NCBI GenBank assembly: GCA_020199835.1
Contig: JAIVJV010000004.1
Coordinates: forward strand, 124,001 to 188,000
Direction: 5' to 3'
DNA: 64,000 bases
Source of the DNA: Acidobacteriota bacterium
GTDB taxonomy: Bacteria > Acidobacteriota > Blastocatellia > Pyrinomonadales > Pyrinomonadaceae
The notes beneath the pieces were generated by a model. That model saw only the letters and a program-made list of their open reading frames with translations, was not told the origin of the DNA and made no database searches. Made by a program: the position numbers and the translations under genes. Within the stretch, counting starts at the first letter, position 1. Each line of letters begins with the position of its first letter. This document shows positions 31,546 through 32,178 of this stretch, piece by piece.

Positions 31546-32112
31546 TCACTGAACCCACGCGGCAGTCTTCAGCGCCCACACGCTATCGGGATATTTCTGT
31601 TGAAACTGGCCCGGCAGCTCACCCAGGACGGTATGATCGTTCGTCAGTTTGTAATGGCTGACCCCTTTCCAGTAAAGGGCTTCAGGCGCGGCTTTGCTGT
31701 TCGGATTACGATCGAGCACCGCTGTGTATCTGCGTTCCGCCTCAGCCCAGTTCTTACTCATGAACGAAACGCGCGCGAGGGCCATCTCCAACTGCGCGCG
31801 AAACTCGTCCGGCGGCAGATAACCCTCGATGCGATGGCGTTCCTCTCCTTTGGGATCGAGTATGAGCACAGTCGGTGTCCACACAGCGTCGAAGCGATGG
31901 AAATACGCGGGATTTTCTTTGATGTGAGCTGAGAGATTTACGAAGTTGTCGTTGATGAAGGCAGAGGTTTCGTCGTTGTCGTACGATTCGGCTTCCAGCC
32001 GAACGCATGCGCCTCAAGCAGGCGCGGCGCTGAAGTCAACGAGAAGTGGTTTTTTACTCGTTTGCGCTTCGCTGAGTGCAGCGTCTGCGTCTTTGATCCA
32101 GTTTACTTTCAT
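31546..32112 (-). CDS. Thioredoxin-like protein with probable selenocysteine (UxxC)
   Basis: The frame from ATG 32112 to the stop at 31546 (188 aa) is interrupted only by TGA at 32014-32016. Codon 33 falls in KPLLVDFSAAPA-U-GACVRLE, exactly where thioredoxins have the first Cys of C-x-x-C; Cys36 is the second. Everything downstream is thioredoxin-like (FINDNFVNL, FDAVWTPTVLILDP with cis-Pro) and then a TPR-like tail. Immediately 3' of TGA, after 10 nt, is a stem TTCGGCT-GGA-AGCCGAA: the apical loop lies 17 nt from the TGA, within the range I recall for bacterial SECIS elements. AAGGGAG precedes the ATG. The alternative is a nonsense mutation; the position and hairpin argue against it. It probably acts as a redox enzyme. 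Confidence 0.75.
31987..32003 (-). promoter_or_regulatory. Candidate bacterial SECIS hairpin
   Basis: On the transcript, TTCGGCT-GGA-AGCCGAA forms a 7-bp stem (8 with a G-U pair) with loop GGA, starting 10 nt after the in-frame TGA. A short stem with a G at the first loop position shortly after UGA is what SelB recognises in bacteria. Confidence 0.6.
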
Positions 32113-32131
32113 TTCTTTGTCTCCCTTAAAG

Positions 32132-32178
32132 GCAAAAATAATAATGGCGCGGGTACTCTACGTTAACGTACCCGCGCC
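32132..32178 (-). terminator. Intrinsic terminator of the cupredoxin gene
   Basis: An 11-bp perfect stem, GGCGCGGGTAC / GTACCCGCGCC (32146-32156 and 32168-32178), with an 11-nt loop and followed on the minus strand by ATTATTATTTTTGCC. It lies between the cupredoxin-like gene and the selenoprotein gene, so the latter needs its own start or read-through. Confidence 0.8.

Follow-up and report, generated by a model that had tools for sequence, protein, structure and literature searches.

The window, a stretch of 64,000 nucleotides from an Acidobacteriota genome, holds a real, previously unrecognised selenoprotein gene of a known kind, the thioredoxin-fold UxxC selenoproteins. With a probability of about 0.93, we read this gene as encoding a 188-amino-acid UxxC thioredoxin-like selenoprotein in which a downstream hairpin would direct selenocysteine (Sec) to codon 33, and which would most likely work as a selenol/thiol-disulfide oxidoreductase. 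The first-pass annotation had proposed a UxxC thioredoxin-like selenoprotein, so far unrecognised, that has a hairpin of SECIS type, and the conserved TGA, the hairpin, tRNA-Sec, SelA and SelD all support it. The features of the locus, in window coordinates, are as follows.

31546..32112, minus strand: selenoprotein gene, 188 codons plus a terminal TGA at 31548-31546 (translation; orthologues with the same TGA)
32121..32127, minus strand: AAGGGAG, a ribosome-binding-like site (by eye; similar purine-rich stretches lie upstream of orthologues)
32014..32016, minus strand: in-frame TGA, codon 33, read as selenocysteine, position 1 of U-G-A-C (sequence; TGA in 37 of 39 full-length homologues, Cys in 2)
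32005..32007, minus strand: TGC, Cys36, resolving cysteine of UxxC (invariant in a 15-row alignment)
31987..32003, minus strand: SECIS-type hairpin of 7 bp with loop GGA, 10 nt after the TGA (sequence, pair counts, synonymous-recoding test)

Translation of the minus strand from the ATG at 32112 down to the terminal TGA ending at 31546 gives a frame of 188 codons with only one internal TGA, codon 33 (32016-32014), in the sequence FSAAPA-U-GAC. The earlier description of a single TGA in a continuous frame, at position 1 of a CxxC-type motif, is thereby seen directly; a plus-strand reading of 31546-32112 was rejected as a different, incidental frame. A standard listing of open reading frames yields only a GTG-initiated remnant of 112 amino acids after the TGA (31546-31884), so ordinary gene callers are expected to truncate the gene, as had been claimed. 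A perfect inverted repeat of 11 bp, with a T-rich stretch behind it, can be made out by eye at 32146-32178 (minus strand), where it separates the selenoprotein gene from the minus-strand gene upstream; it is probably a terminator, which would leave little promoter room for the selenoprotein gene.

A bacterial selenoprotein is expected to have a conserved in-frame TGA whose position is occupied by Sec or Cys in homologues, and this pattern is found here. Among the 39 full-length homologues in which codon 33 was read, 37 have TGA and two have Cys, which answers the check at position 33 that the first-pass annotation had named. An order-level search of 119 genomes (E <= 1e-10) matched 18 of them, 16 with TGA at codon 33, one with a Cys form (L039, 37% identical, motif CVGC) and one with a C-terminal match that stops short of the site (L040). 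At the level of the phylum, 396 genomes searched with a profile (E <= 1e-15) returned 70 rows from 65 genomes. The best 26 of these 70 rows are near full length and 25 of them contain one TGA; four of the 25 genomes were already in the earlier count, leaving 21 new members, all with TGA at the aligned codon. The sole near-full-length row without TGA (L071) has Cys in the motif CKGC. The other 44 rows, which rank lower, are for the most part confined to the thioredoxin domain and were taken for different proteins; of the four that were read (L076-L079), three have Cys and one has TGA, and TGA is present in 13 of the 44. The TGA among those read (L078, G257:C101) lies inside the match, as DG-U-GGC in a longer thioredoxin-domain protein, and this protein and the 12 other TGA-bearing lower rows are probably further Sec thioredoxins.

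Of the two named orthologues, one (80% identical) is from a Pyrinomonadaceae bacterium and the other (69%) from a Blastocatellia bacterium. A scan of contigs of close relatives gave three loci, two of them orthologues with TGA; the third (L022), a DsbH-like Cys protein, was set aside. No homologue turned up among plasmids at E <= 1e-12. The more distant Sec members carry PGULGC, PNUIGC or PHUIGC, and one (L069) carries APTUGAC. Compared with the closest orthologue, the part of the gene after the TGA differs at 21, 13 and 72 sites at codon positions 1, 2 and 3, and five further orthologues show the same lean, weaker with distance; from this third-position bias, the sequence after the TGA appears to behave as translated sequence, as expected. 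In a tree of the 39 members the branches of both Cys forms are long, which leaves room for more than one account of how often, and in which direction, Sec and Cys were exchanged.

The hairpin claimed by the first-pass annotation, 7 bp with loop GGA and starting 10 nt past the TGA, is present at 32003-31987 on the minus strand as TTCGGCT-GGA-AGCCGAA. Its pairs are conserved beyond what slid or recoded versions give: pairing is seen in 88.3% of cells across 28 distinct APxUxxC-group stretches of 39 nt, against 23-45% in six slid versions, and 29 sequences preserve 180 of their 203 pairs, where 2000 synonymous recodings drawn from codon usage outside the hairpin region give 119.6 (sd 4.7) and at most 137, with independence overstated in both tests because the sequences are related. 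The eight most distant Sec members were left out of the pair count. Six or seven of the seven pairs are kept in 23 of the 28 sequences, and four others (L032, L034, L035, L037) have two to four pairs and another folding register. Two orthologues (L030 and L031) combine R38Q (CGG to CAG) with a silent GCC to GCT change, by which the base pair is retained. The covariation score is equal in one slid version (0.101 at +1, against 0.102 for the true register). By folding energy alone the signal is weaker (z = -0.85 for this copy; mean z = -1.2, with 24 of 38 sequences below -1, a set that includes the different thioredoxin L078). Judged on these comparisons of sequences, the hairpin is conserved beyond the needs of the protein, less strongly so by folding energy alone.

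The genome to which the window belongs (G000; 83% complete, 18 contigs) encodes SelA (547 bits) and SelD (356 bits), the latter with one in-frame TGA of its own, together with four non-identical tRNA-Sec genes that pass the cut-off and all have the anticodon UCA, at the following positions.

C6:98652-98746: tRNA-Sec gene
C6:100783-100877: tRNA-Sec gene
C11:35942-36036: tRNA-Sec gene
C15:157847-157941: tRNA-Sec gene

The copy on C15 lies at the same place as in relatives. At least two tRNA-Sec genes occur in 14 of the 396 genomes of the phylum sample and this genome has the most; several tRNA-Sec genes per genome have already been described, according to the available part of PMC5330540. The machinery expected by the first-pass annotation was thus found as far as SelA, SelD and tRNA-Sec are concerned, and a SelB over cut-off was not found in this 83%-complete assembly. 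SelB passes its cut-off in 68 of 80 genomes of the family, and three relatives from the same genus have selB close to a bshA-like gene (by eye), which is 89-97% identical among the three. Neither SelB nor bshA appeared at the contig ends and other stretches examined in G000, where the best match to the bshA neighbour is only 33% identical over half its length; a weak SelB match at the edge of contig C14 was rejected, since by eye it reads like the start of EF-Tu. Because this incomplete assembly lacks the bshA neighbour too, the whole selB-bshA block is most simply taken as missing from the assembly, a real loss being the less simple reading.

Across the TGA-form genomes, tRNA-Sec was found in 33 of 37 (8/8 in one set and 25/29 in the other), and not in G087 (62% complete), G345 (90%), G288 (96%) and G143 (95%). 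In the phylum sample it is present in 22 of 25 TGA-form genomes versus 216 of 371 others (Fisher p = 0.0019, uncorrected for kinship). As for the Cys-form genomes, G027 has a tRNA-Sec and none was found in G418.

That a TGA lies one base away from TGC or TGT, and that SelB was not found in this assembly, would suit a nonsense mutation or a misread base in an ordinary Cys thioredoxin, that is, a pseudogene or a base error. This is hardly credible when the same TGA stands in 36 other independently assembled genomes, the sequence downstream shows a purifying pattern and the hairpin is kept; we regard it as already refuted by the conservation of the TGA. The missing SelB would equally suit a UGA read as some other amino acid, through a reassigned code or a suppressor tRNA, or a programmed stop releasing a 32-residue peptide, and Sec decoding is here read from sequence. 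Such readings are very improbable, however: the gene itself terminates in TGA, its genome has SelA, SelD and a tRNA-Sec with UCA, both exceptions among the homologues carry Cys, the expected substitute for Sec, and the coding pattern persists for 155 codons past the TGA.

A different matter is whether the selenoprotein belongs to the neighbouring copper locus, with the role in copper or metal stress that the first-pass annotation had suggested. The gene does adjoin copper-like genes, named by eye as a multicopper oxidase, a TolC-like protein and a copper ATPase, the other neighbour being a DOPA-dioxygenase-family gene (NF007914, 351.8 bits, cut-off 233). But none of seven proteins encoded around it in the window has a match beside any of 39 homologue loci, for which flanks of mostly 1.5 kb (3 kb for two loci) were compared and among which two pairs each stand for one gene listed twice, and as a positive control the same seven queries find the window itself, six of the seven in the control part. 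The terminator-like hairpin seen by eye between the upstream gene and the selenoprotein gene also speaks against a common unit. The copper role was therefore not borne out and is unlikely; since none of the seven recurs, the copper setting looks particular to this genome. Recurring neighbours among the 38 loci compared are lineage-specific only, such as a VKOR-family gene in L056-L058 (Pfam was run on L057 only, 59.1 bits).

The protein scores over the Pfam cut-off of 27 bits for both Thioredoxin_7 (50.5) and Thioredoxin_2 (49.8), and under it for the classical thioredoxin PF00085 (22.1 against 23.5). The TPR models all stay below their cut-offs (TPR_6 24.3/26.3, TPR_2 22.3/27, TPR_16 21.5/32.7) and residues 110-156 give a profile match to the TPR chain of YbgF (2xev), for which reason we call the tail "TPR-like"; the architecture described in the first-pass annotation, a thioredoxin domain with a TPR-like tail, holds in that form. 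Nine NCBIfam models match at E <= 0.001 and none reaches its own cut-off. An AlphaFold2 model built from three sequences was poor (mean pLDDT 66.5, with the active-site stretch under 50), therefore we relied on profile comparison with solved structures, in which 2kuc, a putative disulphide-isomerase, and DsbD C-terminal domains are the solved relatives. Asp26, Sec/Cys33, Cys36 and Trp78-Thr-Pro-Thr81 are invariant in the 15-row alignment. By analogy with thioredoxin, Asp26 would presumably assist in activating the resolving thiol, and the substrate-site cis-proline would be Pro80.

On this basis, tRNA-Sec and SelB would insert selenocysteine at the UGA of codon 33, guided by the downstream hairpin. 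The thioredoxin-like domain, which has the invariant Asp26 and a WTPT loop of cis-proline type, would carry Sec33 and Cys36 as its UxxC redox centre; Sec33 would attack a disulfide or an oxidised thiol of the substrate, Cys36 would resolve the mixed selenenylsulfide, and the TPR-like tail would probably dock the protein to a partner protein. We infer the selenium insertion itself, the partner protein and the direction of the reaction, the function most likely being that of a selenol/thiol-disulfide oxidoreductase. With no signal peptide visible by eye, the 188-residue protein is probably cytosolic. The homologues apparently make up a family without a published entry of its own in which Sec is unusually constant, and we consider it likely that this is an unpublished, Acidobacteriota-wide "APxUxxC thioredoxin with TPR-like tail" family, nearly always with Sec (37 of 39 full-length members), whose members would be cytosolic selenol oxidoreductases with their own docking tail and a near-obligatory Sec.

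The same genome holds a second unrecognised selenoprotein gene of about 350 codons that adjoins its extra tRNA-Sec genes, two of the three tRNA-Sec genes other than the C15 copy lying about 0.4-0.6 kb from its copies. These and the related Sec genes are located as follows.

L043:6981-8036 (contig C6) and L045:6502-7566 (contig C11), minus strand: copies of the second selenoprotein gene in the same genome (in-frame TGA; L081 and L082 in relatives)
L045:9319-9885 (contig C11), minus strand: peroxiredoxin-like gene with an in-frame TGA in W-U-PYC, beside the C11 tRNA-Sec
L098:1137-5637 (G038) and L097:3035-9351 (G037): apparent selenium cassette with tRNA-Sec, the second selenoprotein and a TIGR04553 protein, and with selA in G038

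The motif of the second selenoprotein is PWV(V/I/F)-U-PVI(P/S)DPR, in this genome PWV(V/I)-U-PVIPDPR, and at E <= 0.01 its C6 copy matches nothing in Pfam or NCBIfam. Relatives occur in 12 of 118 genomes of the family; the 12 loci read have U in three (the C6 copy, G037 and G038), C at the aligned site in four (G099, G027, G106, G050) and neither of the two in five. Both G038 and G037 have a tRNA-Sec gene some 0.7 kb upstream of the second selenoprotein gene, along with a protein that passes the cut-off of 250 bits for TIGR04553, putative selenate ABC transporter substrate-binding protein (256 bits in G038, 261.9 in G037), and in G038 selA adjoins them too, a cluster that looks like a selenium cassette. 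The peroxiredoxin-like gene on C11 is a known kind of Sec peroxiredoxin-like protein, with no NCBIfam model over cut-off.

Acidobacteriota are common in soil, and the phylum is little covered in selenium papers. The gene adds to it a Sec-dependent redox protein that standard ORF finding reduces to a remnant of 112 amino acids, and with four tRNA-Sec genes and a further unrecognised selenoprotein the selenium use of its genome exceeds one gene. In most selenoprotein families Cys forms prevail, and a family that nearly always has Sec offers a good case for asking why Sec is kept rather than Cys.

In the open-licence literature we found no paper that treats selenocysteine and Blastocatellia together, and no report of this protein among papers on acidobacterial selenoproteins or on thioredoxin/TPR, judged by title or the start of the abstract. 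As far as the available parts of these papers go, Acidobacteria were credited in 2006 with four selenoproteins of three families (PMC1794560), one acidobacterium that was tested had three known selenoprotein genes and no new one (PMC12013277), and a different thioredoxin-like family (PF13192) was described in Brachyspira (PMC5330540). The catalogue in PMC13188914 comprises 119 families or subfamilies of selenoproteins, and its accessible text lists no entry among them for a Thioredoxin_7/_2 selenoprotein with a TPR-like tail; PF13899, TPR and tetratricopeptide are absent from its main text as available.

By domain, the nearest entry of that catalogue is the "Thiol:disulfide interchange protein" (PF13098, UxxC, WP_011366075.1; PMC13188914 Table 1), which the available part of PMC9312934 also gives. 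Compared by catalogue description, it shares with the window protein the Thioredoxin_2 domain family and the UxxC motif, and, unlike the window protein, it is listed there with no mention of a TPR-like tail. The closest profile and PDB matches are to the C-terminal (gamma) domain of DsbD (1uc7, 2fwe) and to TsoB (NF045694, profile positions 457-569), but the window protein is without their membrane or rhodanese part and reaches 38.8 of the 805 bits set as cut-off for TsoB and 33.9 of 330 for DsbD. The Sec thioredoxins (PF00085, UxxC; 22.1 bits, cut-off 23.5) are alike in motif and general fold, whereas in the window protein one extra residue separates Asp26 from Sec, and about 80 residues form a C-terminal tail. 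The Trx7/PDZ (NF041199) and VPGUxxT (NF041383, NF041382) (seleno)proteins likewise have Thioredoxin_7-like domains able to carry Sec; the window protein reaches 23.0/300, 27.7/275 and 19.0/350 bits with these three models, and the families have motifs of their own, CxxU and VPGU, as given in Table 1 of PMC13188914.
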